A DNA stretch of 64,000 bases from Cafeteria roenbergensis (Eukaryota > Sar > Bigyra > Bicosoecida > Cafeteriaceae). The stretch covers positions 124,001 to 188,000 of the forward strand of contig VLTN01000006.1 of assembly GCA_008330645.1 (NCBI GenBank), given 5' to 3'. How positions within the stretch are numbered: position 1 is the first letter of the stretch; every line of letters begins with the position of its first letter. Positions 5,437-61,259 of this stretch are shown here, one piece after another. The position numbers and the translations under genes were made by a program. The notes under the pieces were generated by a model. The model did no database searches. It was not told the origin of the DNA and saw only the letters and a program-made list of their open reading frames with translations.

Positions 5437-5801
5437 GGCGGGCGCAGCCCGGGGCGAGTGAGCCCTTTTGTTTTGTTTTCGTCTGACATGACCCCCGAAG
5501 ACTGTGCCGGCTCTGCCCAAGCTCGCTCGTGTGAGGCGCGCGCAGGACGCGTGTGCAAGAGGCACGCCGCGCCAGGCCACCCTTGGAGCGCCGCTGCAGC
5601 AGCAGCTACCGGCGGGGCACGGCCGCGTTGGGGGCTTGGTCCGCGCTCGCTCCACGCAGCGACGACCGGCCCGCGCGCAACGGATTGGAGTTGCAGCCAG
5701 CCCAACCCTGTCGCCGACGGTCTGCGGTGAGCCCACCCGGGCCTGGCTTGCGCGCCCCTGCTTCGCTCCCCGCCCCCGTGTTTCACAAGTAGAGAGCGCG
5801 G
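5437..5801. other. Intergenic spacer upstream of the Tmc-type gene
   Basis: This 365-bp spacer lies between the start of the Tmc-type gene and the stop of the next minus-strand gene. It must hold the Tmc-type promoter and the 3' end of the Tim44/mL45-like gene. I see no conserved ORF, RNA gene or recognisable core-promoter motif. Confidence 0.5.
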
Positions 5802-21739: not shown

Positions 21740-24181
21740 TCAGGTGGAGAACTTGAAGGAGCCGCTGCGGCCGATGGCCTTGGCGGGCACGGGGAAGGAC
21801 TTGCCGGCCGCCGCGGAGTAGAGGGTGGCCGCCACGCTGGTAAACACGTTGGGGCCAGAGAAGGTTCCTGCGACGGTCCAGGAGAGGGTGGAGGAGGCGT
21901 CGTCCCAGGAGAAGGTGGTCTTGCGCACGTTGCCGGAGGTGTACCCGCTGGTGAGGCCATCGTCCTCCACGAGGGTGAAGGAGCCGTCGGCGCCTGCGTA
22001 GACCTGGACCTGGAGGGGCCCGCCGGGGAGGGCGTCGGTGTACTGCACCACGGGGCCGAGGGGGAGGACGGCGCCGGCGCGAGCGTAGATGGGGATGTAG
22101 TCGAGGCCGACGTTGGTGAGCTGCTCGGTGGTGCCTGCCTCGTGGGTCAGGGTGGTGGCGTACTGGTACCAGGTGCCGGACCCCACGGGGAAGTAGGTGG
22201 AGGACTGGTTGTTCTCGTTGAGCACGGGCGCGACCATGACGGAGTCGCCCACGAGCCACTGGGAGGTGAGGTCGTGGGTGTTGGTGTCGGCGAAGAAGCT
22301 AGCCATGAGGGGGCGCATGATGAGCTTGCCCTCCGTGGCGGCCCTGTACGCGAGCGAGTTGAGGGCGGGGATGAGCTGGTAGCGAAGGTTGAGGGCGTCG
22401 CGCATCGCGTTGGCCGCCGCGGGCTCCCAGAGGAAGGGGAAGTGGGGCGTGGCCGACTCGGTGGAGTGCACGCGCATGATGGGGAGGAAGACGCCGGCCT
22501 GGTACCAGCGGGTGAGGAGAAGCGCGTTGGTCTGGCTGGTGAAGCCGCCGATGTCGCAGGTGGTGTAGGGGTTGCCCATGATGCCCTGGTTGAGCATGTA
22601 GCCCGGGGTGATCTGAAGCTGCTGCCAGGTGGGGTTGATGTCGCCGGTCCAGTAGACGGCGCCCATGCGCTGCATGCCGGGCGTGTAGGCGCGGTTGATG
22701 GAGAAGAACCGCTCCGTGGCGTTGAGCGACTGCAGCGTCTCGACCTCGGCGAGGTTCCACCAGTAGAACTGGAAGTAGTACACCTCGCCCTCGTCGTTCC
22801 AGTATCCGGCCACGCCGTCGGTGCGGAAGTGCGCCTGGTTCTTCGAGTACCACTGCCGCATGGCCGGGATGGAGTAGTTGAGGTCGCGGCCGTTGAGGCC
22901 GCCCTCCACGAGCCAGCCTTGCGAGCGGGCGTACGAGAGCAGCTCGGTGTTGCACAGGCGGGGCTTGCGGATGCCCATCATGCGCATGTTCAGCGCGCTG
23001 CGGTAGTAGCTCAGCTGCTCCTTGGGGTGCGGGTAGGTCAGGTTGCTGTAGCCGAAGTCGGAGTACCAGGACCAGCCGTCGCTCGGGCAGTTGTAGTCGT
23101 CCTGGGCGGTGAACCACGAGAAGTCGCTGATGTAGGCATCGATGGGGTAGTTGCCCTGGCGGAACTGGGGCAGCGTGGTGTTGATGTACTCCTCGGAGTT
23201 CCACCCCCAGCGGCTGGCCAGGAAGCCGAGCGCCCAGCGCGGCAGCATCGACGGCGCTCCGGTGATGCTCCACATGCCGCGCGTGGAGGCGTCGATGTCG
23301 GCGGCGGGGATGAGGTAGAGGTCGTCGACCTGCGACCAGACCACGCTGCCGTCCCGCGCCTGCCACGACGCCGCCTGGAGGCCGATGGCGCTGTAGCCCT
23401 GGCTGCTCCAGTACACGGGCGCGTCGGACTCGCGGTTCTCCACGTGCTCGAAGCCGCTGGTGCGGGAGAGGGTGCCGGCGTTGGACTGGCCGGCGCCGCT
23501 GCCGTAGTACACCGCCGAGCTGTCGGCGTCAAGCGTGATGGTGGAGCCCACGATGGGCGTGGGCGGCTCGGTCTGGCCGCCGAACACGCGGTCGCTGGAG
23601 GGGAAAACGCCGGACGCGGACTTGAGCAGCCAGCAGTTGTCCTGCTGGTCAGGCACGGGCGCGTACACCCAGGCGGTGCACTCGGAGAAGGAGTCACAGG
23701 CGGAGCAGCAGCTTTCCTGCGTCTGGCCCGACAGAGCCCCGCCGTTGTCGCCGGAGATGCGAACCGGGTCCTGGGCATCGAAGCCGGGGCGCGCGGTGTC
23801 GCAAATTGAAGAACCGCCCGAGGGCTGGAGGAGCTGCCTCGACGTCACGATGGCAGTGCCCGACGGGTCCTGCATCGCGAACTGGGTCGAGTTGGGGTCG
23901 ATCATCACGGAGCCGAGGCCGCTGACGCTGATGCCGACCATGGAGCCGGAGTTGACCGTCTGGAAGGAAGGCGGAGCGGGGCGGGAATCGTCCAGGAACG
24001 GGTACTCCGTCACGGGGCCGTTCTTTCCGACGGACACGCGGAAGGCGAGGTTGGACTCGACCGTGAGGCGCACCACCCCGGAGGAGACCGTCTGCACCGA
24101 GATGCCATTGGGGATGGGGGTCACAGGCGAGGCCGCGGCCAGGGCCGCCGCGGACAAGAGAATCGCCACTGCGGACCGCAT
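21740..24181 (-). CDS. Secreted glycoside hydrolase family 31 enzyme with PAN/apple-like insert
   Basis: An intronless gene of 813 residues from Met at 24181; an in-frame Met at 24211 adds ten residues before the same signal peptide (M-R-S-A-V-A-I-L-L-S-A-A-A-L-A-A-A). GH31 enzymes are retaining alpha-glycosidases. The catalytic nucleophile motif reads G-Y-W-N-D-E-G-E (about residue 461). The acid/base motif is Y-W-T-G-D-I-N-P-T-W (about 508-520), followed by D-I-G-G-F and the R-W-Y-Q-A-G-V-F-L-P-I-M-R-V-H-S block. A Cys-rich insert at about 124-194, with S-C-C-S-A-C and C-T-A-W-V-Y, resembles a PAN/apple domain sitting between the N-terminal beta-sandwich and the barrel. There is no HDEL-type retention signal, so it is not a typical ER glucosidase II. 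Lysosomal, phagosomal or extracellular action is inferred. Confidence 0.93.
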   Translation of the reverse strand: MRSAVAILLSAAALAAASPVTPIPNGISVQTVSSGVVRLTVESNLAFRVSVGKNGPVTEYPFLDDSRPAPPSFQTVNSGSMVGISVSGLGSVMIDPNSTQFAMQDPSGTAIVTSRQLLQPSGGSSICDTARPGFDAQDPVRISGDNGGALSGQTQESCCSACDSFSECTAWVYAPVPDQQDNCWLLKSASGVFPSSDRVFGGQTEPPTPIVGSTITLDADSSAVYYGSGAGQSNAGTLSRTSGFEHVENRESDAPVYWSSQGYSAIGLQAASWQARDGSVVWSQVDDLYLIPAADIDASTRGMWSITGAPSMLPRWALGFLASRWGWNSEEYINTTLPQFRQGNYPIDAYISDFSWFTAQDDYNCPSDGWSWYSDFGYSNLTYPHPKEQLSYYRSALNMRMMGIRKPRLCNTELLSYARSQGWLVEGGLNGRDLNYSIPAMRQWYSKNQAHFRTDGVAGYWNDEGEVYYFQFYWWNLAEVETLQSLNATERFFSINRAYTPGMQRMGAVYWTGDINPTWQQLQITPGYMLNQGIMGNPYTTCDIGGFTSQTNALLLTRWYQAGVFLPIMRVHSTESATPHFPFLWEPAAANAMRDALNLRYQLIPALNSLAYRAATEGKLIMRPLMASFFADTNTHDLTSQWLVGDSVMVAPVLNENNQSSTYFPVGSGTWYQYATTLTHEAGTTEQLTNVGLDYIPIYARAGAVLPLGPVVQYTDALPGGPLQVQVYAGADGSFTLVEDDGLTSGYTSGNVRKTTFSWDDASSTLSWTVAGTFSGPNVFTSVAATLYSAAAGKSFPVPAKAIGRSGSFKFST

Positions 24182-24455
24182 TGCAGCCGCAGAGAGGGTG
24201 CGGGGATGCACGACGGAGGGCGCGAAGGGCCCGGGGGCGGGTGGGGTCCGGCCCTCTGCGCGCTGCAGCGGGGCGAGTGCGGGATCGCCCTTGTTGCGGG
24301 TCAGTCAATCTCGGGGGCTGACGAGAACTGCAAGAGCTTCTATCGTTCAGGTTCAACATGGCGACGTCCTCTGCACGAGAAAAGCTCGGGAGGACTCTGC
24401 CATCGGCGACAAAGTCTCGAGCGCCTCGCCCCCACGCTCCAGCGTTGCGCCCGCA
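24182..24455. promoter_or_regulatory. Short divergent promoter (GH31 / MRH protein)
   Basis: Only 274 bp separate the two start codons (244 bp if GH31 starts at 24211). A somewhat less GC-rich block around 24300-24360 lies centrally. Shared regulation of the two genes is plausible from the geometry alone. Confidence 0.55.
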
Positions 24456-27070: not shown

Positions 27071-30000
27071 ATGCTGGTGCTCTTGCTCGCAAGCGTGGCG
27101 CTGGCCCAAACGCCATACCCCAGTGAGTGTCGCCGGCTCGCGCGCGCGGCCTTGCCTCGGAGGGCCGTCGCTGAGGCCGGGCATGGACCCGATTCGCGTG
27201 CGAGGGTGCGGACAATGCCTGGGCCCGTCACATGCCGCTGCAAGAGCGCGCCCGTCCCCGCGTGGACGAGGCCGGCGAACCTGCTCCCGGTGCCACGCCC
27301 CTTTGCTTGCGGGGCCTGCCTGCTCCGCTTGCGGGGCTGCTCGGTCCGCGCGGAAGCGCTTGCGTATGGCAGGCAGAGAACATTGTCCGCACCTTGTGCG
27401 CTCGCTGCCCGCGGCAGCGACGCCCCCTGCCTTGCAGCAGCCGGTGTGGGTGGAATCGCATACTTTTCACCGCTGCGCTGAGTGGCATCTTTGGGGTGCG
27501 ATTCGCAGAGTCGCTGCCGCTGTATTTCCTTTTCAACCTGGACGCAAGCGTTCGCAACCTGGGCTCCTCGATCGCGATGCACGACGGCGATCTGGCGATA
27601 GGGCAGTGGAACCAAGCATATGTGACGGAGATGGGCTACGACCTGACGTCGTCTCAAGTTCTTCAAGATGCGACGCTCGCCAGCAGCGATGTCGACGGCT
27701 CGGCGCCGCCTGGCCCCGTGGGTGTGGACACATTCGGGGGCCTCTCAGTGGCGTGGAGCGACCGGCGGGCTGTGCTGCTTGCGAGCAAGGCTGGCGACGG
27801 CCAATGGGTCCGCGCCGCGGAATTGGGCTCCAACGTGGGCCGGCCGACGTCGTTTCAGGCCACGGCCTCCAGCGACATCCCAGAGCCTTGCCGGCTTGCG
27901 GCGCTCGGGTCGGCGTCGTCCGAGCAGTTCTCAGCGCGTATCGTGAAGGCTGCCGTGGGACCCGGCACGCTGGCAGTCACCGTCCACCTCTCTCGCCAGG
28001 ACGGCGCGTTTTGCCGATCCGTCGCCGTGTTCGAGGAGGCATGCCTGCCCGGCCGCGGCCTGGAGAGCCCCGCGGAGCGCCTTGCCCTCGACCTCCTGGT
28101 CAACGGCACCGTCCCAATGCGTGGCAACGCATCCGTCGCCAACGGCACCGCTGGCCGTCCGTGGCTGGTGCAGGCTGGACCCGGCGACCCGCGGCCGGAC
28201 GCGGGATATAGCGCGCTGCTTAACGCCACTTCTGCGATTGCAGTTGGGGAGCCCGGGTCCTGCCGCCGAGGCGCCGCTGGCCCGACCGCGGCCTGGGGAA
28301 GCCACCCTCTGAAGGCCGCTGCGGCAGCTGCGGCCAGGCCCCTGTGGCTGCGAACAGGCCTCGTGCTCTCAGACGACGCGTCGTTCGGCAACGCCCTGAC
28401 GATCTCAGCGGACGCGCTGGTTGTGGGGGTGCCAGACGCGCCCGGGGGCGGGGCGGCCGCCATGCTTCGGAGAGGGGCGCCGTTCCCGCAAAGGCCGCAG
28501 GCCGGACCGGGATGGGAGACCGCGTCTCTTGGGAGCCTGTCGGACGCTCTTGCTGTGCCGTCGGCTGGGGCTGCGGCGTGGCAAGCGGCTATGGCCGGCG
28601 CCACTGCTTGCCTTGCCGCCGACGTCAACGCCACCTCTGCTCTCGCCTGCTTTGAAGCGGCCCACGAAGCAACCATGAGAGCTGCCGGCGACGCTGCGGG
28701 GGGCTGGTTGCGCCTCGGATGGGGCTCCAGCCCGCTGGCCGCCACGTCTGACGCTGCGGCAGGCCGGCTGTGGGCGTCTCGCTGGCACAACGCGGGGACG
28801 CTCAGCCCGGGCCTCGTGCTGCAGGCAGCGTTTCCGGAGCAGGCCACCTCGGTCAGCACGGCCGGGTGGCGCTTTGGGGCGGCAGTTTCGCTTCGTGACC
28901 CCCTGCTCGTCGTTGGATCGCCCGGCGCAGACACGCACATGCTGCCGGCACGCGCGACGCCCGACGCTCCAGGCGTGGCCGGGGAGGTCGGGGCTGCCGG
29001 CTCCGGGGCCGTTTGGGCGTTCGAAGCGCCCGCCCGGATCGGCGGCGTCGTCCCCGACTCCCTCGTGGCTGTCGGCGCGCTCAGCGACGGCTGGAACTGG
29101 GAGCGAGCTGCGGAGACGAGTCAGGCGTTCCGGACCCTCGACGCCGGGGCGACGGTGGACGCCGCATCCCACGCAGCGGCGGTTGAGGCCGCCACGCAGG
29201 CGAGACTGCTGTCAGGGGCAGTGGCCCGTGCGAGGGCAGAAGCGGCCGAGCAGGCCGCAGCCAGCGCCACAGCGTCGGACCCGTCGACCCCCCAGGTGGA
29301 GCGCCGCGCTGCTGACCCGCTGAAGTGGCCTCGTCCGAGGCACGACGCCGGCGCCCGGGCTGGCGACCCGGCGGCAGGGGCGTGGTTCCGGGTCGATGGG
29401 GAAACGGCCGCCGCCCAGCGGCGGCTTGGCGGGGCGGCCGTGAGCGTGTGGCTGTCCGCCGGGGCTCACGCCACCCCAGGAGGCATTGGCCTGGGATGCC
29501 TGGCCTCGCAAGGCTCGGCAGGCGGGGGCATGGGCGCGTCCCTCGCGTCGCTCACCAAGGGCGACACGTCCTTCATCTTCGCCGGGGCCCCGGGCGTCAA
29601 CACCGTCTTCGTCACGCAGCTTCGCCGGCCAGTAAACGCCTCCCTGGTGGGCGTTGCTCCGGCGGGGACCAGGCTCGCCCAAGGCTCCATTCCCCGCTGC
29701 CAGGCTCTCGAAGGCGTCGTCGGCTTCGACGTTACGTCAGAGAGCAACGCCGGCGCGACGCTGGCCGTCAGTCACGGCACCCTTTACATCGGGGCGCCAG
29801 ACGCGTCCAACGCCGGCAGAGGGGCCACTGCACAACCGGGGCGCGTATATGTCAAGCAGTTTTGCTTCGAGACGGGCGTTGTCACTCCTTCCAGATTCCC
29901 CTTTTCTCGAGAGTCGCCCGGGTTCTGCTCCCCGTGCAGTGGCCAGCACATTGCACCGTCTTTCAGCTCCACAGCCGCGGAGTGCACCACTTGCCTTCGG

Positions 30001-33000
30001 GACTTGCCGGACCTCGCGATGGCTCAGCCGCCGGACAATTTCCCGTGCGCCTTCCAGTGCGATCCAGGCAGCTTCGGGACCGAATGCCGGACATGCAGCC
30101 AGTTTCAGTTCAGACAGGGCGCGTCTCTCCCCCCCGGGGCGATATGGGCCGACGCCAAGGACGTTTGCGGGTGGACCTGTCCGGCCGGCTTTCGGCTCCT
30201 GCCCAACGCCACTGGCTGCGAGCCACCGCCGCCTCCGGCGCCGCCCCTGCTTGCAGCAGTGCTCCCAGCCGTGGAGCCCTCGAGCGCGGCCGGACCCAAC
30301 GCAAGCGCCGCTCTGTCAGCCGTTGCCGTCGGCTCCGTGTTCGAGGCGGCATTCGCTGTGCCCGCCAACTACGACGAACCGGCCCCGCTGCTCTCTGCCA
30401 AGGCGCTCCTGTTCCCAGCCGCGGCAATGCCCGCGGTGGCAAGCCCCACCTCGGCGGCAATGGCGATCGACGTGGCGTGGACCCCCGTCGCGTCCCTGTC
30501 TGCCTGGAGCCTGGCAACGGGCGACGAGCTCCCGACAACAATCGCGCACGTGTCCGGAGTGCAGGCCGCGAACGAGGCCACTCGGGCTGCAATGGCCACG
30601 CTGGCCGCCGCCGGTGGAGGCAACGCCACCCTGGCGCAAATGATTCAGGAGGGCTCGGCCAGCGTGTTCACCGCCCGCTTCTCGTACATGCCGAGGGGCT
30701 TCGAGGGCGCCATCGGCCTTGCGGTGGGCAACGGCGGCGGCTGGGGCAACGCCACCCTCGCGCTGAGCCTGATCAACGCGAGCGTAGTCGCGGCTGACGC
30801 AGCGCTGTCAGGTCCCTGGCAGCTAGACGTCAGCGCCAGCCCCAAGGCCCCCGAGCTGGCGCGCTCTGGCGAAATCGCGTGGCCTCGCGAGATGCTCGCG
30901 ATTCCCGCGTCGGGTGCCGCGGCTGTTGCGTGGGCTCCCCCGCTCGGCCAGGCCGTATTCCCCTCGCTGGGGCTGGGTGACTTCCCCGTCCCTCACGACC
31001 CCACGCTGCAGACCCAGCTCTGCATCATGGCGCCCCCCTCCGTCCTGGATGCGGTGTGCTCGACAGGCGTGCTCCTGACGCTCGGCAAGCCGGCCTCCAG
31101 CCAGTGGCTGCCCCCGGCCCTCCAGCCCGCCCAGGGCGGCTGGCCGCTGAAGAGGGTCGTGGCCATCGTCGACGACCAAACGTGGTCCGGGCTCGACTTC
31201 GCTTTGGGCGTGCAAGCCCCTGCCTCAGGCGCTGCCCCGCGCGCTCGCTCGCTGGTTGTGACGGGGCTCCGAGCCGGCATGCTCCTCAGCCTGGCGGTGA
31301 GGGAACGCGTTCCCAACGTCGGATGGACGCCATTTTCTGAGCCTGCTTCGCTCCGCGTGCCGCCCGTCGCCGCCCCGACCGGCCCGGCGGCCGGGTCGAG
31401 CACCTCCCTGACTTGCTCGTTCAATGGCACAACTGAGTCTGCAGCGGCTCACCTGGAGTTCGTCCTCCCTCCAGGCGCCTTTGCAGGAGCCCGGCCGACG
31501 CTCCTCTGGCTGCTTCGCCCTCTGCGCCGCTGTGAGACGAACGCCACCCGCCTGCAGTGCTGGACCGCACCGCCATCGCCGCCGGCGCTGGCCCCACCGG
31601 TCCTCGCGACTCTGGGTGACTTTGAGCGAGCAACCTCCGGCTTGCACCCCAGTCCGACGTCGGAGCGAGCGCAGCTCAACGCCTCCCTCGGCCTCCTCGG
31701 CATCCAGGTGGCCGGCAACGGGACAGCGCCTGTGGCCAGCCTGCTGGGGGCCGGGGGCTTTGGGCGGGCCGTGGGTTTCCAAGAGCTGCTTCCCGGTGGA
31801 AGCATGGACACGCCTCTGCTTCTGGCAGAGCCCGACGGTGCTGTGCGGGTTTCACTTCACGCGGATGCCATCCCGGGGGGCTTTGACGTTGCGGTCGCGC
31901 TGGTGCTGCAGAACGAGGCGGGGCCATCGCGAGCGGGGGCCGTAGCCGTTTGCTCGGCGCCCGCTCCGGTGGCTCCGGCCGCCCCGCCCGCCGTTGCGTG
32001 GGACAGCTCAACTAGCCCGGGCGCGTCATCGCCGGGGCCTGACGGTGTCATTCTGCTCGGGCGTGCTCCCAGCTTCCTGGGACGCTCGCCACTGGCGGGC
32101 ATGCGGTTCGAGGCTGCGGCAGTGCGCGGTCCTGGCATGGGACACTCGTTCACTGGCACAGCCGACTCGCGCTCTGACCTACTGGTGCCAGGCTCGGGCC
32201 TGGACGCCGCCCTCGAGCTGTCGGCCCCACCGCTTTGGGCGCTAACTCACTACTGCGGCCGCTCGTCCGCGACGAATGCTGCGGCATTGGACGGCCCGTG
32301 GTCTTCGCCCGAGGCTGCAACCCTTGTTCCGGAGCAACACGGGACTGCTTGCGTGCAAACATCCGCAGCTGTCGCTCCGTCGGCCCCAGGTGTGCCGTCC
32401 ATCGTGCAACAGCAGGTGGCCCCGTCCGTGCTGGCGCTGATGTGGGATGCCCCGGCGCAAGTCGGCGGCGACCGCGTTGAGGAGTACTTGCTTCAAATGG
32501 CCGACTCGGCCACTGGCGTTGTGGCCTGGGAGCAGGTCCTGACCACGCCCCTGCAGCGCAACGCGTCGGCAGGCCCCGCGGACCACACTCGCGCGGTGGC
32601 CCTGGTTGGCGGGGTCGTGCCCTCTGCAGCTGCCCGGACGTTTCGCGTTGCTGCAAGGACTGCCGCCGGGGGCGAGTCCCAGTTCGGCCCGGCGCTCTCC
32701 GTGGTCTTCGATCGGGCTGTTCACCCACCCGGCACGCCCGGCCGCCTTGCCACAAGTCCCGTCACTCACCTCTCAGGGCCTGCGCTGCAGCTCAAGTGGC
32801 GCCCGCCGCTGGACACCGGGTCTGCGTCGGCGCCACTGAGCTTCGAGGTGCAGGTGGTTTCGACAAACGCCTCGCACGGCGTGCTGGCCAACCGCAGCTC
32901 CCCCTCGTCCTCGTCCTCGTCCTCGTCCTCCTCCCCTGTCCAGCAGCACCAGCAGCAGGCCACGTCGGTACTCTTCAACTCGTCGGCTGTGCAGTGCCAA

Positions 33001-36000
33001 CGCGTTGCGGTCGCGTGGCACTCCCCAGCAACTGCTCTAGCGGCGCTGGCCGCAAGCCAGGCCGCGCCCCTGGAGTGCACTGCCGAGCTGGTCGGGTTGC
33101 AAGCACACGCGGCCTTTGAGCTCCGCATCCGCGCATCAAACGGCGCTGGCCCGGGCCCCTGGTCAGCGTCGTCGGAACTGGTTGTGACTGGGCCGCCTGC
33201 TCCTCCGACCCCGCCCCGAGTTTGGGCGACGCAGCGAAGCGGGCAGTCGTGGATCGAGGCGTGCTGGCTCCCAGGGTCCTCGGACGGCGGCTCGCCCGTC
33301 ACGTCGTTTGCGCTCTCCGCAACCGTCGCCCGCCACTCGCCAGCTCTGGCCGCCTTTGCCAACGAGACACTATTTGGCGGCATTCAGGCCCGAATCGCGT
33401 GGAAGGGGGTCGCTCCCCAGTCACTCTCAAGTGCCGATGCCTGGCTGGAGCCCGTGCAGGTTGGGGCCGTCTCTGTCGCGCAGGGCATGGCAGCGGGCGT
33501 GCTGCAGTCTGGCGGCTCCGCGTCCCAGGCCGGGGCAATGTCCGCCGGGGCAGGCGCTGGCTCGGACTCGCTGGGTGCACAGCAATGCGCTCACGTGCGG
33601 GGCTTGCCTGGGGCGTCGGTTGTGCACATTGCGGTGGCGGCAACCACGGCAGCGGGCACAAGCGCGGTGTCCGCAGCAGCCCACGAAGACGCCGTTGCCA
33701 TGGCCGCAGAGAGCGACGCTGACCACCGGCGCTTTGGCCTCGCCCTGACAGCGCTAGCCGCGCCGCCCGGCTCCGTGTCCGAGCTCACGGTGCTCCCAGC
33801 CAACAACAGCTCTGGAAGCTCTCTCGGGCTTGCTGAGCTGGTGTTTCGCTGCCCAGTCGACTGGGGCGGGGGAGCCTGGCTTGACGCCCCTGGCCTGCGG
33901 CTGTGGCTGCACCCTGCGTCGCAGGCGGCGCGAAACGCCTCGTGCGCTGGCGCCCGCGCTGAGGGGCATTCGGAGCTGCCGTCGGAGGTCCACGTCGTGG
34001 ACGTCCCGCCCTGGGCGATTGAGCTGGTCAACGGCAGCACTTCCTCCCAGCTCGTTGCTGGGGACGGTGCGAAGGTGTTGCCCCTGCCCCTTGATGCTGG
34101 CGGCAACGGCCGGGAGCGACTTGCGGGACGCTCCTTGTGGTCTGTCCACAACCAAACTGGCCAGCTGCCGCTCGGCGCGACTTGCCGCGTGCTCATTTCG
34201 GGCCTTCCGCGTCGCCCAACCCACCTTCATGTGGGCGTGGTCACCTCTGCCGGCATTGGGGCCGCAGAGGCGCTTGGAGAATCGGCAGCTTCGGAGGCGC
34301 CGTCGTCCCCGCCCCAGCCAGCGTGCCTCCCGCTGGCCGACCTTGCGGGCGGCGCGCCCGAATCGCCGCAGCCACCCGGTGGGCTTGTGGCAGGCAGGAC
34401 AGCCTCGGGCTCGCTGCTTGTAGCCTGGCCATTGGCGCCCCGCGCCTCGCAAGGCGATGGCGCCGTCCCGGCTGTGAGGCTCGATGCAGAAGCGGTGCCA
34501 GCGTGGCAGCTCACGCTCGAGCGGGCCGAGGAGGCTCCCTCGTCGGTCGCGTTGTCCGGCATGTCTCCCTTCACACTGGCGCCGCAAGGCCGCGCCGAGG
34601 CAGCGCGCTTTGTGGTGGCGCTGCCGGCCAAGTTTGAGCTCACCCCCGGCTTGATCGGCCCCGCGTGCCCCGCCGGGCCTTCTGGGACCGAGCCTTCCCT
34701 CTTTGAGTCTGCCTGGGCGCCGGCAAACCCCCCAGCTCGGGCCGCCGCCGTCCATGCCGGCGTGTCGGCGCTGGGAAGCAGCGAGTCGCTCTTTGCCATC
34801 CGTTTGTCGTCGCCAACAGCTGCCAGTGGCGTCGGTGCGAGAGCTCGTCTCGTGGCCGCGTCCGAGGATGCGTCCCTGGACGTGGCTCTGCACCGTGATC
34901 CAGCGCAACCACCCGGTGCTCAGGGCATGGTCAGCAGCCTTGGGTGGCTCTCTTCGGCTGTGCTGACGACCGGGCAGCTCCTTCGAGCGGCTGCCGACGT
35001 CGGCATCGACTCGGCCTTGCGACCCGCTGCCTCGGGGACTGAGGCTGCTAGCGCGCCTGCCCGGCCTGTGTGGCCCGTCGCGGCTCACGAAGGCCTGTGT
35101 GATCGCTGGAACCCCCATGCGTCCTCGTGGGCGAGGGCCGCATGCGCCCAAGGCACACCGCTCTGGGCAGTGGCCGAGGTTCCCTTGCCATGGGGCGTTC
35201 GGGGCAACCTCTCGGTGGAGCTTGGATCGCTTGCGAGCCGGGAGCCAGGCCCGGGTGCGCCGTCTGAGCCGTCACTTATCGCGTCGCTGGGGCTGCCCCC
35301 GCCCCCAGCGGAGCAGCGATGGGAGCTTCCCCCGCCAGTGCGCGGCGTGCGGGCCGTCTGTCTCGCAACTGCAGCTTCCACTGAGGCGTCCCTCGTAGTG
35401 TCGTGGCACGGGGTGTCTGAGAGAGCGGCCGCCGGACACGACATCGTCGCCTACCGCGTTCGCGCAGCAACGCTCCGGGCTGGCCCTGGCAGCGGAAACA
35501 GCACGTCCTCGTCTGCCTTGGTGTCGCTGGAGGACCTTCAGCTCGCGGCGCGCGCCGTGCCGCTTTCCGACTGGCTCCCAGTGGACACAGTGTCGGCCCC
35601 ATCTGGTGCAGACGCATGGCGCACCAGCGCCACCGTGCGACTGGCCCCGCTCTCCTACCCTGAGTCAAGCTCTCACCCAGTGGCCGCGGCCTCCTCGGCA
35701 GCTCTGCCCTGGGCGAAGCTGCTGCACGACGGCCAGGCACTGGGCGGCCCAAGCGTGCCAACGAGCACGGTGCTGGGCGTCACTGTGACTGTCGTCACGG
35801 CGAACGGCGTGGAGCTCGCCTCCATCCCGTCGGCTGACGAGGCTCTGCGCAGCGGCGACGCGGCTGCCTTGGGCCTCGCATTCGCCCGGTGCAGCCCCTC
35901 TGCTGCAGTGCTTGCCTCTGCCCCAGGGCATGCCTACACAGCGGCGACCGGCGCGCGACAGGCCGCCCTAGCGGAGGCCGGGGAGGCTGCCCCAGTCCTG

Positions 36001-39000
36001 GCAGGGGCGCCGCCCCCGGCCCAGCCGGTGCCGTGGCTGCGCTCTGCAGGCGGCGCGTCCGCCGACACCGCCTCGGGTGCAGGCTTCGGCATCCTAGCGC
36101 GCGTGCCGCAGTCACTGTGGGCCATGGCGGAGCGCTCCCCGACGGCGGCTTGCCTCGCAGCCGCGGTTCGCTCAGGGGCCCTGCCCGAAGACGTAGACCT
36201 CCCGGATGCTGGGCTGCAGAATGCCACGATGTGCGAGCTCCAGGCAGGGGTGTGGCTGCACGGGGCGTCTGGGCAGCAGCTTGCGCCGGCCAGAGGCCCA
36301 GACCTGCTTCTGGCCCTGCCCCTGGCAGCGGGCAGCGACGCCTGGGCACCGTCGAGCTCGCCGAGCCGCTCCGCACTGTCGTTGGGCGCTGCAGGCATGC
36401 CCGCCGCTGTGCTCAGCCTTGACCCTGCAGACCTAAACGCGTCAGCCGCGGGGCGCTCGGCTGCGCTTGCGGTGACGGGAACGGCGCACGCCAGCAGCGC
36501 CACGCTGCTGTGGCGCTTGGCGATGACGACGGCGGCCAGCTCGATGCCTCCGGCAGAGCTGCCGTGGGTGCTTGCGGTCACGAGCTCGGGCAACCCCGGG
36601 AGCCTCAACCTGACCGCCAACGCCTCCGATCCGAGCGCTCACGCGGCGGCGCCACCGCTGCGTAACATGAGCGCGGCTGCCGTCGCAGACTCGGCGCTTG
36701 GCGTGGCCGTCAGCTGGTCCCTGCCGGCCTTTGCGCCAGCGTCGCTTGCCTCCTCCGCGGTGGCGGTGTGTGCCGTCGACCTGGGCGATGCCGCCGCCAG
36801 CCTGCCTCGCGGCGGCGCCTTGGACGACGCTGCAGCATCAGTTGCGGCCGCGCTGTACAGAAACGCCACAAGCCAGTCTGGCGAGGCCGCGGACGTGCCT
36901 GCAGGCGCTCGCGCCTTCTGTCCGGCCAACGGCCAGGCCATCCTCGTGGCGCCCGACGCGGGAGCCCCAGCGGTGCTGTGGGGGCTGCGTCCTGGCAGGG
37001 CCTACGCGATCGTGGCGTCGGCTCTTCACCACGGCACCCAGCACACAACGGCGAGGGTTTCGGTGCCAGCTGCAGTTGCTTGGAAGTCGCCAGTGCTGCA
37101 GTCGCAGCCCTGGCCGCCAGCTCGGCCACTGCTGGTTGCCGTGCAGGGCGTCGGTGCCACGTCGGCTGCCTTGCGGGTCCTCCCCCACCCTGACACAGGC
37201 AGCGCGCCCGCCCTCTCCTCGGTGTCTTGCCGCGTGCAGGTTGTGGGCGATGGGGGCGAGTGGGTGGCTGCCGCGGAGGCTCGCACGAGGGAGCTTCCCT
37301 TCCCGGCCCCCGTTCTCGTCGTGTCCGGCCTTCGTGCAGGCACGACGTACCGCGGCATGTGCCGCGTCCTCTCGTCGGCCGGGGCTTCTCCTGAGCGGCC
37401 CTCTGCCAGCTTCCGGACAGCCCTGCCGGATCCGGCGTCAGAGCCCCAAAACGTGGTGGTGCTGCCAGAGACGCTGGAGCTGCCCGAAGCAGTGCATGCG
37501 TGCGCTGCGGGTGCGGCCCTCTCTTCCTCCGCCGGCAACTCGTCCACGGCGGGCCTGCAAGCGCGTGCCCGTGGCCCGACGTGGATGTCGCTGCGCTGGG
37601 ACCCGCCGGCAACTGACGGCGGCTCGGATGTCCTGAGTTACGTTGTGGTCGTCTCTTGCGAGGAGAGCCGCACGCTTGGCTCGGACGCTGCCGCGGGGGC
37701 GTGGGGGTCTGCGACTTCCGCAGGGGTGCCCTCCAGCCTCTCCAGCGGCTTTGCGTCGGGCACCGCAACGCGCGGCGTGCGCGTTGGCAACGTCACGCGG
37801 GCCGTGCTGCGTGGCCTGCCCGCCGGGTGCTCGGCAACCGTGACCGTGGCGGCCGTCACGGCAGCTGGGCGAGGCAGCGCTGCGGTCGCTGCATCGGGAC
37901 TCCGCCTCCCGTTGCCTCCTGCGGAGGCGCTCGCGCTGCCCGGAGTGGACGCTGCAAGCGTGCGCCTGGAAGCACCGTCTGCCGGCCCTGGCCCGCTGCT
38001 GGTTGCCAAGTGGGCGCCCGGACCGCACGCGCTCAGGCTGGGCGTGGCATCGCAGGCCTTCGTCCTGCTCCTGAACCGCACGCTGCAGCCCGGCCTGCCG
38101 CCAGCAGGGAACCCAGGGGGCGATGCCGTGTGGGCAAAGGACCCGCCGTCGCTCTTCGCTCTTGTCAACGCTGCACCGGCGGCGCGGGCGGCCGCGTGGG
38201 CGGCAGAGGCTGTGACGCGTGCCTCGGGATCCGAATGCGGGGTGTCTGAGGTCGGGTGCCTCGGCCAAGTGCCTGCACAGCTCCCGTCGGGCGCCGCTGC
38301 AGCCGCCGCGCTGCAACCGGCTGCCTGGCTCGGCGAGTACGGAGAGTCCATAGCAGGCGCCCTTGCCACCGCGGCGCAGGCCAATGGCGTGTGCGGTGCT
38401 GCGAGGGACAGTGATGGCGTCGGCTGGGCAGTGCAGGGGCTCGACGCCTCTGCGTCGTTGGAATGGTCGCACACAGTGCCGAGCGCCACTGCCCGCGCCC
38501 GCTACGCTCTGTCAGTGGCCCACGCGCGGTCTGCCGCTTCCGTGGCCGCGTTCTCGGCAGAGGCTGCCGCGATTCAGGCCAGCCTTGTGCGCGGCGTTCG
38601 GCCCGCCTTCCCACCTGCGGTCGAGCTGGGCCTGGCTGCCGCGCTGGCTGCGGGCGGCCTCGAGCGAGGGGAGGCTGCCGGGAACGCCACGGCTGTGACC
38701 CGCGACGCCGTCCCCCCAGGACCGGTGGGGCGGCCAGCCCTTGCGGCATCGGCTGGCCCGGACTGCCTCGACCTTGCCTGGGCTGTGCCAGAGACGCACG
38801 GTCGTCCCGTCATTGGCTACGCCGTCCGCATTGAGGATGCCGAGGCGGCCGCGACAGAGGCAGCCGTTCGGCGCGCACCGTTTCCCTGGAACTCGTCCGT
38901 CACGCCTGATGGCGTGGTATGGGGGCCCCACGCTAGGCTCGCTCCGCCTCCGCTGTCGATCCTCACAGTGCTCCCGGCGGACAGGAACCTTTCGGACGCG

Positions 39001-42000
39001 GTCCGTGCTGCCGCTGCGGCGCTTGGAGAGGCGTCGCCGCTTGCAGCGCTGCCAGCTCCACGCACGCTGGAGCAGGGCGACACCGGGGTCCCGCTATCGG
39101 CCGGCTTCCAGCAGTCTCCTTCCCCAGAAGGCGCGCACAGCGTGCGCATCTGCGGCCTGCGCCAGTTCCGCTCCTACGAAGTGTCCGTCGTGGCCATCTC
39201 CGTTGCTGGCGTGGGGACCTTCCACGAGGCGCCTGCGTCGCTCCCCCTGAGCACCGAGGCCTCGGTGCCTCCGGGGCCGGTGCGCTCTCTGCGAGTGGCC
39301 GACCTGCGAGTGGTGGCAGACGCGGTTGGGGTGGCGACCAAGGCGGAGGGCGGCCACTTCCTCCGCGAGACCCGCTCCGTCTGGACTGAAAACAGCCCAG
39401 AGGATCGAGCCAGGGCGTGGGACACTTGGCAGAACGCGCTTCCTCTCAGCGCGCTCGCCGCGGCCCCGCCCGCGTGGGGCAAGAACGCCCTTGGCCCGCT
39501 GCGGGAGGCAGCCCCTGTCGCGCTGGTGTCCTGGTTGCCGCCGGTCAGCCTAGGAGGCTCGCCCCTCCTCTGCTATGAGGTGTCCGTGAGGGCCGTTGGC
39601 GTTGTGGCGGACCCGTGCGGCTCGGGTCCAGGCAGAAAGGCTTGCGCCCCTGGGGAAGACGGCCGCCCGAGCTCCGGCGTCGCCTCGATGTGGAGCGCTG
39701 GTGACCGGTCGTGGGACAGCCTGGTGCAGCAAGCGCTCGGCCCGGGAGCTGGCCCCGCTGCCAACGCGATCGTTTCGCCTCGCGACAGCGACGGCAAGGC
39801 GCCCGAAACCATCTCGGACGCTATGTCGCTCTTGTTCAAGGCCGGACTGTCGGGGTCGGCGCTTTGGCCGGACGATGCGCACGAGGGTGAGTCGGCGCAA
39901 GCTCCCCAGATCTGGCCGCAGTCCGCTGTCCCGGTGACTGGGACGCCTGAGTCCGGCCTGCAGATCTCCTCGAACACCACAATGGGTCCGGGCGACGCGT
40001 GGGCAGCCGAGTGGGGGACGGGCTCCCCGACGTCGCGAGCGCCGCTGCCCCCCGGCGTCGCGGCGTGGGCTCGCCTACTCACCAGGGCACCAGAGGACAA
40101 GGCAGCCACCACGCCTGCATCCGAGCCCATGTGGCGCCCTGTGACCTGCGTCCAGCAGCCGTGGGCCACCCTTGCGCTCCCGCCCAGCGGAGCATTGGAG
40201 GTTCGCGTGCGAGCGATCGCCGTCGAGGGCCTTTGGACTGTCTCCGTGCCTGAGGCCCGTACGTCAGCAATGAGCCAATGGCTGCCGCTGGCCTGGACCC
40301 AAGGCATTGCTGAGCCCGCTGGCACAGCTCCGCCAGCGTCCTCGTCGCCGTCGACCTCGTCTGAGGATTCGCAGGGCGGGGATAGCGGGCCGCAGACGAG
40401 CCGAAGACTCGAGAGCAACAACAGTGAGCAAGCCCCTGCTGCCCTTCCTGTGGCGCAGCTTGCTGGAGGGCCTCGCCGTCGCAGGCTCGCAGTCGGCCTG
40501 CCCAAGTCTGACCTCGCACGCCTGCAGGCCCAGCCCGAGCCGCGCGCTCGAAGGCTCGACCCCGCATTGCCGTCTTCCGGCGACCAGCCCCCCGGGGTTG
40601 TCAGGCTCCCTTTGGGAGACTTGAGGCCGATTCCCAACCTCACGCTGGAGAAGGCGCTCTCCGTGCCAGCCTTTGGCGCCAGTGACGACCCAACGCCGGC
40701 CTCCTGGAGGCAGGCCTCCGACTCCAGGCGAAGGATGTCGTTGTGGCCCACCGCAGTGCTGGTGCCGCAGCACACCCAGGCCACCGACGTCGTGCGGGTC
40801 ATCACGCCCCCGACCCGGCCTTGGCGGCCCATGGCTGCCGTGGCGATCAACGCGGAGGCCGAGGCGCTCTCCGTGCGTGCCGCCCCACCGCGCTACTCGG
40901 GCGGCTGCGCTGTGGCGGAGACAACGGTGTCCTACTCGCGGGGCGAAGTCTCGGGCCGGCTCACTGCCGAGGGCTCCCCGGCGGTGGACCCCTCGCTTGT
41001 GCACGGGGCCACGTTCGTCGATCGCTGCGGGCTCCCTGGCGCTTCGCCGCGGTTCTGCAACAGCTCTGCGGCGCCGCCCGCCTTCTCCAGCGTGACAGGG
41101 AGCTCGAGCACCGGCCTGAACAACGGCGGCCTCGTGGAGCCACGCTTCGGCGGGCCCCTCTTGCGTCTCGGCCTGCAGGCTGGAGGCCGGCTCTACCGGG
41201 CGCAGCTCGTGTCCGTCCACACGACCGCTGCGTCGCAAGCTGGCGCGACGGACTCTGGGCCCCTGCTCGTCACCTCGACGGCAGCCGCGCCACCGTCGGA
41301 GCCGCGCGGCCTCGCGTTCGTGCCCGAGCTCGCCAGCCCCGTTGCGCTGGGGCTGCGAGTGCTGCCCCCGGCCGACAATGGCGGTCGCACCATCCAAGGA
41401 TACATCGTCAACCTCGCAGGAGCCGGATCGGAAACTGTGTCGGCAGTGTTTGACAGTCCGGCCAACGACAGCGCGGCGTTGCCGCTGACAATGGTTGTGG
41501 GCGACTTGCAGCCCTCCAGCGAGTACACGGCGTCTGTGGCAGCCTTCACGAGCGGCTTGGTCGGGCCGGCTATCACGCCGGGGAAGGCATCAACCCCGGA
41601 CCCGATTCCGTGCCCTGGGGCCTGCTCCGGCAACGGCGCCTGTCATGCCTGGAACGGAAAGTGCACCTGCAACGCCTCTGTGGTCGGCGCGAGCTGCGAC
41701 AAGCTCGCCGGCCTGCTGGTCGTGGCGCAGATGGGCGACCTGCCGAGTTCGTGGGACCCGTGGGAGACTGCGGCTGCGCTTGCTTTCGCCATCGGCGCGC
41801 CTGCAGGCCGCGTGATTGGCTTGCTGGGCCGCGCCAGCCCCGGCATGCGCGAGGTCGGGGTGCTGCTCCTCGCAGCAGAGTACTCGATGGAAACCAATTC
41901 GCTAGCTGGCAGCGAGGGTGCGCAATCGGGCGGTGATGGGAGGCGGGCGCTTGCGGCAGCAGACTGGACGTTTTCCAGCGGCGAACCGTACTCGCCCGCA

Positions 42001-45000
42001 GCAGCTGTGCGGCTGCTACGAAGCACGCTGCGGCTGACTCCGCGCCGACTTGCGGGCGTCGGCATTGCTGGCCTACTCCTGCCCCCCGAGGGCGCCGGAG
42101 GCGCGAGCGGCCTCATGCCCAGCAGCGCCTGGACGGAGAGCCTCGAGGCACCAGTTGCCGTTCCTGCTGTCAGCTGCTCTGAGCGCTCTGGCTGCGGCGA
42201 ATGCATGAGTGACCAGGCCTGCGGCTGGTGCCTCTCCGACGACCGCTGCGTCGCCGGCACCGGCCTTGGGGCTGTGAGCTACCTCGCGCCAGACAACGGC
42301 GTGGACGGCCGCTGCACGCCCAGGCTCGGCTCACCAGGCGGCACCCCGTCCTCGGCCATGGAGCGCTGGTGGTTGCATGTCGACGCGCCAACGACCGCGC
42401 AGCGGGCTTGCCCGACTCCGTGCAGCTCCCTGCAGGGATGCAACGTCTGCGCTGCGAGAGACGACTGCGTCTGGTGCGAGACGCTTGGCCAGTGCGCGTC
42501 GCGGGCCAGCATGGGCATCGACGTCGACCTCTCGGGTGTCATCCAGAACCCACAGTTGGTCGGCAGCGTGTCGGACGGGTCGTCCCCTTCCAGGGCTCCC
42601 AGCATCGCTGGCAGCGGGACCTGCGGCCGTGCCGTCGTCAAGCCCGGGTTGTGCGCCGCCACCCGCTGCAGCTCCAACCACAACCTCTACCATTGCGTGG
42701 CTGACCCCGTGTGCGGCTGGTGCGACGTCCCCCCTGCCGGGCAGCTGCCGTGCTCGCCAGGCACGTCTTTCGGGCCGACTGAGGGCTCCGCCCCCTGCTC
42801 CTCGGGCACCTACTACCACAGGACCCGTATCTCGTGCTCCGGCAGCAGCTGCGCGGACTGCCTCTCCCAGTCGGCCTGCGGCTGGTGCGAGTCCACGCAG
42901 CAGTGTGGCTCCGCGTCGCTGATCACGGGCTTCCCCTCTGCGGGCCACTGCAGCAACTGGGTCGCGCCCGTGAACGCGCTCCTTTCGGGCGTGCCCGACT
43001 CCATGATCAGAACCTCCGCCCGTGCGTTGCGAGCCGCCCCCTTCGACGCGGTCGCGGTTTCGGAAGCGGACGCGAACGCGGGCCCCATGCGCTCTGACCG
43101 GGCGCTTGCAGCCAACAGCACCGACGCTGCAGTTGCTGCGCGGGGGCTCGCGGACGCAGTGGCCTTCCCCCGAGGCGCCTACTACGGGTCTGTCGACTCC
43201 ATCAGCCTGCACTGCCCCGCGTCCACCCTGCCTGGAGACAGCATCTGCCGGCCGTTCAAGTCCTGCGGAGACTGTCTCGGCCAGGCCAAGTCGCTGGGCT
43301 GCGCGTGGTGCGACAACCCCGCTGGGGCACCCTTCTGCACATCGCTGGTCGCAGGCCAGACGCTCTGTTCGGCAGATAGCCGCGTTGGTGCGTCGGACTC
43401 GAACCGCGGCGCGCCCGTTCTCGGCTCCGCGACGCACCCGGATCTCACCCAGTCCCGCTGCCCGATGCTGTGCCCCCAAGCCGCGGTGCTTTCCGCCAAG
43501 GAGGGCACCATTCAGTTCGGCTCGCTGCTCGACGCGCAGGCCAGCCCGTTCGAGTCGGTGTACCGCCCCTCGGAGATCAGCTCCTGCTCCTGGTTCATCA
43601 AGCCCGCGCCCACCACGCGCCAGTCGGACGGGCAGCCGATTGAGACCCTCATCGCCTCGGTCAAGGTGATCACGTTCGCCCTTGGCCGCGGTGACGGCAT
43701 CATCGTGTTCGACGGCCTCGGGCCAGTGGAGTCGTCGCAGGTGCTTGCGGTCTTCGTCAACGCATCCACAACCACGGCCACAACGGTTGGCTCGCAGGCT
43801 GCCAGCGTGGCGGGGCCGGCGGCCGCACCGCAGAGCCGCGGCCGCACGCTTTCCGCGGCAGCGCCTGCGCATGCGCCCGCGCCCGCGCCGGCCACCGTCG
43901 GCGACCTTCCCGACTGGCTCCGCGCGTCTCTCGACAGCGCCGCCTCCGGCCGCGCCCGCCTGCCCTTGGCCCACAGCGCTCGAGGGGGCATTGAAGTGGG
44001 TCGCTTCAGCATTCCCGACAGCACCCCGGTGTTCACGGGCCCGGGAGCCGTGACTGCCCAGGCGGGCGGCGACCTGCGGCTGGTCATGGCCGTGGGGACG
44101 GGAGGCGGCGGATGGGGCTTCCGGGCCACGCACACGGCCACCCAGGTGAGCTACACGGAGCTGCAGATCGTCCTCCAGGCCACTGGCTTCACGCTCCTCG
44201 CCTGCGTCATCCTGCTCGCAGCCTTCCTCATCGTCTCCAACATCCGCCGCCGGGCGGCGCAGCGAGCGCTGGCTGTGCAGGAGGCGGCAGCCGGCGCCGG
44301 GGCCGACGACCGAGTCCCTCCCCGCGTGGCCATGTCCCAGGACCTCATCGATGCGTTCCCTGTCTTCGTCTTCCAGAAAGGGAAGCTGGAGGGCACCCCG
44401 CTCGAGCCTCGCAAGGCTGCCTCCGCGACGGACGGCGGCACCGCGGGCACAACGCCGAGCGCTCCCGGCCAAGGCACGCCGGCGTCGGCGCAGGGGCGGG
44501 ACGGGGCAAGCGGAGAAGAGGCCGGCGGCGTGGGCGACGCGGGTGCCGGCGCGGGAAGCGCAGCGGCCGGGGCGCCTCCCCCCATTCGCATTCCCGTCAG
44601 CCCGGTGGGGCAGGGCCCAGCCCAGGCGTGCCCGCCTGCCCCTGTCGCCCCGGCCCCCGCCGAGGAGGAAGAGGCCCCGTCATGCGCGGTGTGCATGTGC
44701 GAGTACGAGGACGGGGAGCAGGTCCGGACGCTGGCCTGCAACCACTCGTTCCACTGCAAGTGCATCGACGGCTGGATGGCCGAGAATGGCACATGCCCCA
44801 TGTGCCGAAGCGACACTCTGGAGATGGCGGTGATGCTGCTCAGCCTCACAGAGGCTGGCGTGGCCTCTCCCATCAGGATCAGAGAGGACGTCCCGCTGGT
44901 GGACGCCGACCACGTGCCACGCGTCCCGCTGCTGGAGAGGCTCGCGAGGGAGGGTGCCTTCTCCTGGCTGGGCTCAGGCCACGCCGACGATAGCGGCCGG

Positions 45001-45453
45001 GAGAGCAGCGACGATGAGGGCGATGGTGACCAGCAGGACAGCGATGCAGAGGACGACCACGTGGCGCCTGGCGCCCGGGCCGCCGGAGGCGACGCGGTGC
45101 CGCTGCAGCGCTCCTCGTCTTCTCCCCCTGCCGCAGCTTTGCTCCCTGGCGCCGCAGTGCCGCCCCTCTCGCAAGCCCCTCGCGCTGCAGTGGTCAACCC
45201 GCTCCTCGGGTCAACGCAGCACGCGCGCGAGCGCGGCAACCCCGGCATCCTGCGCCAGCGAGGCGCGAGCGCCAGGGTGCTCACGAACCCGTCGCGGGTG
45301 GCTCTCCCGCGGCCGCCGCCGCCAGCCGCCGCCCCTGGCCCGGCGGAACGTGGCGGCAGCGACGCCTCGGCCCGGCAGGTTCTCGCCAGCAGGCACCAGG
45401 GCGCCGCGGGCGATGCGCCCGCTTCCGGAATCATCAACCCCATGTACAGGTGA
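27071..45453 (+). CDS. Giant adhesion-type transmembrane protein with cytosolic RING-H2 E3 finger
   Basis: Exon 1 (27071-27122) encodes a signal peptide (M-L-V-L-L-L-A-S-V-A-L-A-Q). A 386-nt intron (GTGAGT...TTCGCAG, phase 1) leads to a single exon, 27509-45453, for 5998 residues. Order: FG-GAP/integrin-alpha-like repeats (about 18-815); a Cys-rich block (822-923); a region containing at least nine recognisable FN3-like domains (roughly 1635-4715), with Trp cores such as L-M-W-D-A-P, L-K-W-R-P-P and L-R-W-D-P-P; one EGF-like module (4718-4748); five PSI/plexin-type Cys motifs (4907-5288); a CUB-like segment; one transmembrane helix (5572-5597) followed by R-R-R; an ATL-like linker; RING-H2 C-x2-C...C-x-H-x2-H-x2-C...C-P-M-C (5743-5788); and an acidic, Pro-rich tail. 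It should be a surface receptor that recruits E2 enzymes. No ligand can be named. Confidence 0.9.
32903..32960 (+). repeat. TCCTCG repeat encoding poly-Ser then Gln-rich tract
   Basis: A short (TCCTCG)n run encodes about ten serines, followed by CAGCAGCACCAGCAGCAG encoding Gln/His. It lies in a loop inside an FN3-like domain of the giant protein and is a likely length-variable site. Confidence 0.85.
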
Positions 45454-60977: not shown

Positions 60978-61259
60978 GCCTCCGCCGCGGTCGCCGCGAC
61001 TGCCGTCGGCAGCGCGCCCCGGCGAGACGCGGAGGCGCCCGTGCAGCTGCGAACAAGCTGGCAGCTCCGCGGGTTCGCGCTCGCACTTGCCGCTTGCCGC
61101 GCAACGCTCGCCGGCGAAAACCGACGCGGGGCAGAGCTTTGGCTCTGCCGTGGGCGTCAGCTGGGCAAAACAGATGGCTGTCAGAGCTTGGCCGCCGCTC
61201 CCGACCTGCACAACAGCACCACCGCGCTGACGCAACCGGCCTCCGCATCGCCTGCACCG
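60978..61259. promoter_or_regulatory. Short divergent promoter (secreted mosaic / DUF442-like)
   Basis: These 282 bp lie between two divergent start codons, both of which have strong start support. The frame on the plus strand is open through this region but not conserved. Confidence 0.5.

Follow-up and report, generated by a model that had tools for sequence, protein, structure and literature searches.

The stretch of DNA analyzed here, a window of 64,000 nucleotides from the bicosoecid stramenopile Cafeteria roenbergensis (contig VLTN01000006.1, positions 124,001 to 188,000), carries on its forward strand a gene for a giant protein that is predicted to join an adhesion-type ectodomain, a single transmembrane helix and a RING-H2 domain in one polypeptide; its database name already reads "RING-type E3 ubiquitin transf". 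The protein read from the window is called P0001, and the deposited models of three strains are called P0002 (FNF29_01517), P0003 and P0004. The genome searched comprises 36.3 Mb in 167 contigs, with a guanine-plus-cytosine content of ~70%; the name C. burkhardae is also in use in the literature for such strains, and we take these strains to be the ones meant.

The listed open reading frame runs stop-free through 6073 codons (27232-45453, forward strand), and its ATG at 27232 lies inside the first intron of the gene; the join between the signal peptide exon and the main coding exon is identical in P0002, P0003 and P0004. The initial annotation had described a protein of roughly 6000 residues in one frame that included the signal peptide; the stop-free frame and the size hold, with a spliced product of 5998 residues provided that no further introns occur, but the signal peptide has an exon of its own, set off by a GT-AG intron. 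By a codon score that was trained on this same giant gene, the gene's frame beat the other two forward frames in every one of 200 random windows of 120 codons. The three strain models (5623, 5433 and 5018 residues for P0002, P0003 and P0004, respectively) disagree with each other and drop in-frame segments; P0004 skips at most 977 internal residues (1356-1481, 2279-2714 and 2922-3336), 842 of them codon-scored, and additionally goes without 75 residues of the first intron and the 5' part. Five omitted segments were scored (1356-1481, 2279-2419, 2555-2714, 2922-3336 and 4345-4418), while residues 2420-2554, skipped by P0003 and P0004 only, received no separate score. The gene's frame was the best of six in all five segments; every other frame was negative in three of them, and a reverse frame was also positive in two (0.078 in 2922-3336, 0.046 in 4345-4418). 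Four of the five align in part with P0005, a relative introduced below; segment 2555-2714 barely aligns, so that an intron or a lineage-specific insert stays possible there. The scored segments look coding, and the database proteins are therefore probably too short.

In the C-terminal part of the protein, residues 5650-5668 stand out as strongly hydrophobic, with a mean hydropathy of 2.63 against 1.72 for the runner-up, in agreement with the single transmembrane helix that had been proposed. The top hydropathy stretch also precedes the RING in P0005 (2.70) and in a second relative, P0006 (2.14), where the second-best ectodomain stretches are less clearly separated (2.16 and 2.02, respectively). 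A juxtamembrane motif, PxFxF followed by TPL, is retained in P0005, P0006 and a paralogue on contig C47. The RING itself (zf-RING_2 in Pfam, E=3.5e-12) has the ligand pattern C-x2-C-x14-C-x-H-x2-H-x2-C-x10-C-x2-C; P0001, P0005 and P0006 each have all eight zinc ligands, in the right order, which bears out the complete C3H2C3 RING of the initial annotation. The nearest solved RINGs are those of RNF38, RNF13, RLIM, EL5 and ZNRF3. V5820, W5848, P5856 and R5859 are identical in P0005 and P0006, and R5859 directly follows the last ligand, the place of the linchpin; we take the Val, Trp and Pro positions to be E2 contacts and the Arg to be the linchpin itself. A linchpin role is described for R318 of MGRN1 in excerpts of PMC12752501. 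By its zinc ligands, candidate E2-contact positions and linchpin Arg, the focal RING-H2 is predicted to be intact. The tail beyond the post-RING segment carries repeated NPx motifs; in four tails, the NPL tail of the paralogue included, nine of 11 NP pairs are NP[M/L/I], against 0.2 expected when each tail is shuffled, and none of 20,000 shuffles reached nine, in a test that is post hoc because the motif was first noticed in the same tails. Our guess is that these motifs act as a docking or trafficking signal.

For the ectodomain, the window protein was scanned against Pfam in two pieces (E<=1), four pieces (E<=10) and ten tiles (E<=5); fn3, PSI, zf-RING_2 and some related RING models exceeded the Pfam cut-off. 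The fn3 matches of the two-piece scan reached E=2.9e-19 and 5.8e-9, and five FN3 stretches passed Pfam alone in the tiled scan; an iterated FN3 profile, the E-values of which are flattered because the profile contains its own matches, recognized seven domains (residues 1730-1813, 1848-1975, 2004-2143, 3447-3548, 3841-3995, 4094-4126 and 4701-4778), eight in P0005 and none in five shuffled sequences. The initial annotation's count of at least nine FN3-like domains was thus too high; its five PSI motifs fit the five CxWC motifs seen, and four of these stretches pass Pfam (E=3.9e-10). Its FG-GAP repeats and its EGF module have sub-threshold matches. FG-GAP matches occur in the N-terminal region, which aligns to P0005 from residue 116 onward, and all are below the cut-off (E=0.54 in a 3000-residue piece, 0.0026 in the N-terminal piece and 0.00027 in P0005); the sub-threshold FG-GAP_2 match lies at 28861-28935. 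The best EGF-type match, EGF_Teneurin (E=0.0072, tiled scan), is also sub-threshold, and Pfam lists no EGF family at E<=10 in P0005 or P0006, but the cysteines of this module align in all three proteins. Pfam gave nothing for the cysteine-rich module nearer the N-terminus; a SEA-like look, noted by eye, of the segment after the EGF-like module was unconfirmed. The membrane-proximal domain recalls CUB by eye only (E-G-x-I, C-x-W, DGI-x-V-x-DG, GGGGWGF); Pfam had nothing for it up to E=10, and its four matches at E<=10 in a sequence search of the PDB were all A33/OPG161-named (best E 0.73) and none was a CUB domain, so that the CUB assignment is unsupported by Pfam, the PDB search and AlphaFold alike. 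The genome search found no second copy of this region. The conserved domain between PSI array and helix, the PxFxF/TPL motif, the post-RING segment and the NP[M/L/I] tail motifs are additions to the features noted before.

In a full-length search, words from residues 4700-5900 led to 907 candidates, which were scored; the matches were P0002, P0003, P0004 and P0005, the last a JGI protein of 4801 residues that aligned with the window protein in five BLASTP pieces covering much of it (E 4e-180 to 7e-37). A profile of the EGF-to-RING part (8000 shorter candidates scored) had one match, P0006, a JGI protein fragment of 1282 residues that starts in FN3 and continues through the RING and tail; a RING-region search among giant-length proteins (193 candidates) gave four matches at E<=10, again the strain models and P0005. 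These searches required shared five-residue words and a set length range, with the consequence that other relatives could be missed; the C47 paralogue, for example, falls outside both length ranges. Pairwise identities among P0001, P0005 and P0006 were 39.9, 43.5 and 41.6% over 1047, 1129 and 1012 columns, and the best conserved block of 100 residues (5801-5900, RING and post-RING) was 61% identical to P0005; the remaining blocks ranged from 23 to 50%, the latter value coming from just two aligned residues. Since the order of ectodomain, transmembrane helix and RING recurs within one predicted protein in P0005, and across the same junction in P0006, and since the RING and post-RING part is the best conserved, the join of ectodomain and RING probably did not arise through mistaken merging of genes; the giant gene is genuine, single and conserved. 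A giant adhesion-type ectodomain and a RING-H2 in one polypeptide, as initially annotated, are thus supported by the strain models, P0005 and the P0006 fragment, and the suggested search for the same architecture elsewhere found the same domain order in the latter two. The further claim that this architecture is unknown elsewhere holds within the 193 giant-length and 8000 shorter candidates, where only the protein's own family was found; among the literature matches listed (open-licence papers), titles and abstract openings do not describe it, which is no proof of absence. In viral contigs, 33 stretches fit a pattern and none encodes a relative.

Table 1. Features of the giant gene in the window, and its paralogue on contig C47
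Feature	Position	Strand	Basis
Exon 1, signal peptide MLVLLLASVALAQTPYP	27071..27122	+	Same start in P0002-P0004
GT-AG intron, 386 nucleotides, GTGAGTGT...ATTCGCAG	27123..27508	+	Codon score <0 in all three forward frames
Main coding exon, stop-free	27509..45453	+	Reading frame listing, codon score
N-terminal FG-GAP-like region, possible beta-propeller	27511..29901	+	Bounds set by the authors
Cysteine-rich module, cysteines common to P0005	29926..30219	+	Alignment
Region with seven recognizable FN3 domains and unassigned stretches	32419..41565	+	Pfam tiles, iterated profile
EGF-like module	41611..41700	+	Sub-threshold Pfam, conserved cysteines
Conserved domain after EGF-like module, without Pfam match	41707..42141	+	Three-protein alignment
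PSI array, 4-5 modules, five CxWC motifs	42175..43461	+	Pfam, alignment
Membrane-proximal conserved domain, CUB-like by eye only	43471..44139	+	Alignment
Single transmembrane helix	44173..44238	+	Hydropathy
Juxtamembrane motif MSQDLIDAFPVFVF...TPL	44332..44403	+	Alignment
RING-H2 (C3H2C3)	44683..44805	+	Pfam, ligand check
Conserved post-RING segment (SDTLEMAVMLLS...VPRVP)	44809..44943	+	Alignment
C-terminal tail, repeated NPx motifs, end NPMYR	45196..45450	+	Motif count
Paralogue, 2435-residue frame (L035)	C47:247819-240515	-	BLASTP, alignment

The C47 paralogue repeats the C-terminal plan of the focal protein, as judged by alignment and by eye: FN3, EGF-like module, PSI array, membrane-proximal domain, helix (hydropathy 2.48), LPAFVF...TPL, RING and NPL tail. 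BLASTP relates it to the focal protein in the PSI region (E=1e-23), the FN3-EGF region (9e-14) and the RING (1e-11); in its Pfam scan (E<=10) neither a PSI nor an EGF family appears, and fn3 falls short of the cut-off (E=0.0058). Its RING reads C-x2-T ... C-x-H-x2-A-x2-G ... C-x2-C, and has thus lost ligands 2, 5 and 6, so that site I, by what we presume to be the assignment of ligands to sites, keeps its first Cys alone and site II (ligands 3, 4, 7 and 8) is whole. Pfam still places this RING above the zf-RING_2 cut-off (32.8 bits); zf-Nse, an SP-RING-type family, matches below its own (E=2e-4). Searching the genome with the paralogue's PSI region yielded the paralogue and the focal gene and none else; its RING yielded itself, the focal gene first after it, and 13 further RING matches, eight of which were inspected and all lack the plan (five were uninspected). 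Genome-wide there are 42 zf-RING_2 matches, and among the 18 frames inspected (the focal gene, a giant on contig C6 and 16 others; 24 uninspected) the paralogue alone shares the plan with the focal gene. The C6 giant, a frame of 6277 residues with a C-terminal RING and a Cys-rich tail (C6:67899-68054, L006-L009), was rejected as a receptor, having no strong helix near its RING; by eye it is MYCBP2/PHR-like. A zf-RING_2 match on contig C21 (C21:177857-177985, L016) reads ACGIM...C-x-H...C-x2-C and by eye misses site-I ligands. Taken together, the C47 and C21 sequences suggest that site-I-deficient RINGs recur in the Cafeteria genome. It is conceivable, if distinctly doubtful, that contact brings together the giant and its site-I-deficient, SP-RING-like, single-zinc paralogue as a heterodimer, the giant providing catalysis and the paralogue regulation; receptor kinase/pseudokinase pairs would then have a counterpart in ubiquitin signaling.

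Elsewhere in the window, a frame of 1848 residues on the reverse strand (55968-61514) encodes an adhesion-type neighbor with an FG-GAP_2 match (E=8.9e-14), a TNFR-type Cys-rich match, a leucine-rich repeat match below the cut-off and no clear transmembrane helix. The window also encodes a cullin with neddylation domain (50109-51548, forward strand) and, on the reverse strand, a GH31 glycosidase (21740-24211) that matches PAN_4.

The focal protein is, with some reserve, probably a single-pass receptor-type RING-H2 E3 ubiquitin ligase in which contact of the ectodomain, or a partner in cis, is linked to ubiquitination. The ectodomain would be displayed at the surface, or in the phagosome or endolysosome lumen, of this bacteria-eating flagellate, and would bind a ligand on a particle, cell or matrix, or a membrane neighbor in cis; the RING would recruit ubiquitin-charged E2 and ubiquitinate itself or membrane neighbors, directing these targets to uptake and degradation. 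We infer that surface contact could in this way be coupled directly to ubiquitination. Excerpts of PMC7852580 report that C. burkhardae feeds on bacteria, and that cell-adhesion and signaling functions, taken as classes, rise in its stationary phase. Several points weigh against a contact-linked receptor ligase. A common membrane anchor could be all that joins the ectodomain to the RING, and the topology is a prediction from hydropathy and from the signal-peptide exon of the deposited models. The AlphaFold models were too poor to use, with a mean predicted local distance difference test (pLDDT) of 30.3 for window residues 4826-5643 and 31.7 for the membrane-proximal segment of P0005. Moreover, P0005 and P0006, treated as orthologue-like by their sequences, could both stem from one organism; the P0005 model begins at an internal Met without a signal peptide and P0006 is a 3' fragment, so that Cafeteria alone shows the architecture in full.

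The same domains could serve narrower functions. RING E3s commonly autoubiquitinate, and the focal RING matches ordinary E3s; it might ubiquitinate only its own receptor and set the surface lifetime of an adhesion protein, with no substrate in trans and no contact-dependent signal. The NP[M/L/I] repeats could be the trafficking signals of such a built-in turnover tag, but the strong post-RING conservation suggests, without proving it, more than self-turnover, and we regard this explanation as possible but rather unlikely. The same tail motifs could instead be sorting signals of an intracellular-membrane ligase, with the ectodomain in the lumen of the phagosome, endolysosome or endoplasmic reticulum, where it would serve cargo or protein quality control instead of sensing contact. 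The bacterial diet of the host (PMC7852580) and the endosomal location of the PA-TM-RING ligase RNF13, as given in reference titles of PMC4021871, would suit this location. The 47 N-glycosylation sequons of the protein fit a surface and an intracellular site alike. FN3, PSI and EGF modules, however, are more typical of surface proteins, and they make an intracellular ligase improbable here. Finally, the unequal lengths of the strain models could mean that two or more genes were read as one, with the ectodomain and RING parts as separate transcripts that share a frame by chance; yet the join is found in two relatives and all three deposited models, the gene's frame scores best in every scored omitted segment, and no stop interrupts 6073 codons, which leaves this explanation very unlikely.

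A receptor-type RING-H2 ligase of this kind has counterparts with which it can be compared. The initial annotation had set it against animal receptors that signal through kinases or GTPase modules; this contrast was incomplete, since ZNRF3/RNF43 and MEGF8/attractin-MGRN1 already join ectodomains to RING ligases, as excerpts of PMC3905715, PMC12752501 and PMC13161197 indicate. ZNRF3 and RNF43 are controlled by R-spondin, and the ZNRF3 ectodomain is one variant protease-associated (PA) domain (mouse construct K53-L205), according to parts of PMC3905715. The ZNRF3 RING matches the focal RING at E=1.4e-12, and in place of the single variant PA domain the window protein has an FN3/PSI/EGF-like ectodomain of ~5500 residues. 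Signal peptide, ectodomain, one helix and cytoplasmic RING follow each other in ZNRF3/RNF43 as they do in the window protein; by this analogy, a role in surface-receptor clearance is plausible. PA-TM-RING proteins (RNF13, RNF128/GRAIL, RNF130 and others) are defined in excerpts of PMC4021871 by a PA domain, a transmembrane helix and a RING-H2, with a signal peptide in most members. They share the order of signal peptide, helix and RING-H2 with the window protein, and the RNF13 RING is among the closest solved structures, but adhesion modules take the place of the defining PA domain: no PA family was found in the window protein in two pieces (E<=1), four pieces (E<=10) or ten tiles (E<=5), or in P0005 and P0006 (E<=10), by HMMER searches whose filters can drop weak matches.

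The plant ATL ligases combine a helix, a short conserved motif and a RING-H2; the RING of the ATL-type EL5 matches at E=1.3e-12, and the PVFVF of the window protein may resemble the motif of the ATL GLD region, sharing the PxFxF pattern alone with the ATL consensus. ATL proteins, among which EL5 is listed as OsATL24, have 124-993 residues and no other recognized domains in excerpts of PMC3161093; their marker is a Pro at position -2 (ATL) or -1 (BTL) of the third RING Cys, and a GLD motif between helix and RING is common but not required (excerpts of PMC5133618). No Pro precedes the third RING Cys in P0001 (TLAC), P0005 (SLVC) or P0006 (VLTC), and no GLD triplet lies between helix and RING in these three proteins or the paralogue.

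The ectodomains of MEGF8 and attractin contain CUB, PSI and EGF modules; in the window protein PSI is above the cut-off, EGF sub-threshold and CUB seen by eye only. MEGF8 and attractin are single-pass receptors coupled to RING ubiquitination at the membrane (excerpts of PMC13161197 and PMC12752501), to which the window protein would be analogous; there, the ligase MGRN1 is separate and bound via the cytoplasmic helix and tail of the receptor, whereas the window protein has its RING in the same chain. The cytoplasmic MASRPF(A) motif described for attractin/MEGF8 in excerpts of PMC12752501 is absent from the window protein, as searched for MASRPF. By the features tested, the sequence is that of a new variant of receptor-type RING E3, outside PA-TM-RING, ATL and attractin/MEGF8. 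Excerpts of PMC12752501 call the regulation of MEGF8/attractin-MGRN1-type complexes a major unresolved question; if the proposed function is correct, the Cafeteria protein would make it possible to test within one chain how an ectodomain controls an E3, and direct receptor-to-ubiquitin coupling would have arisen outside animals, on adhesion receptors. The known ubiquitinating receptors of animals are small-ectodomain ligases (ZNRF3/RNF43) or receptors with a separate ligase (MEGF8/attractin-MGRN1), and one protist chain would do the jobs of both; it fuses a very large adhesion-type ectodomain to a RING predicted to be intact, and is accompanied by two relatives of ~40% identity and by a paralogue whose RING is degenerate.

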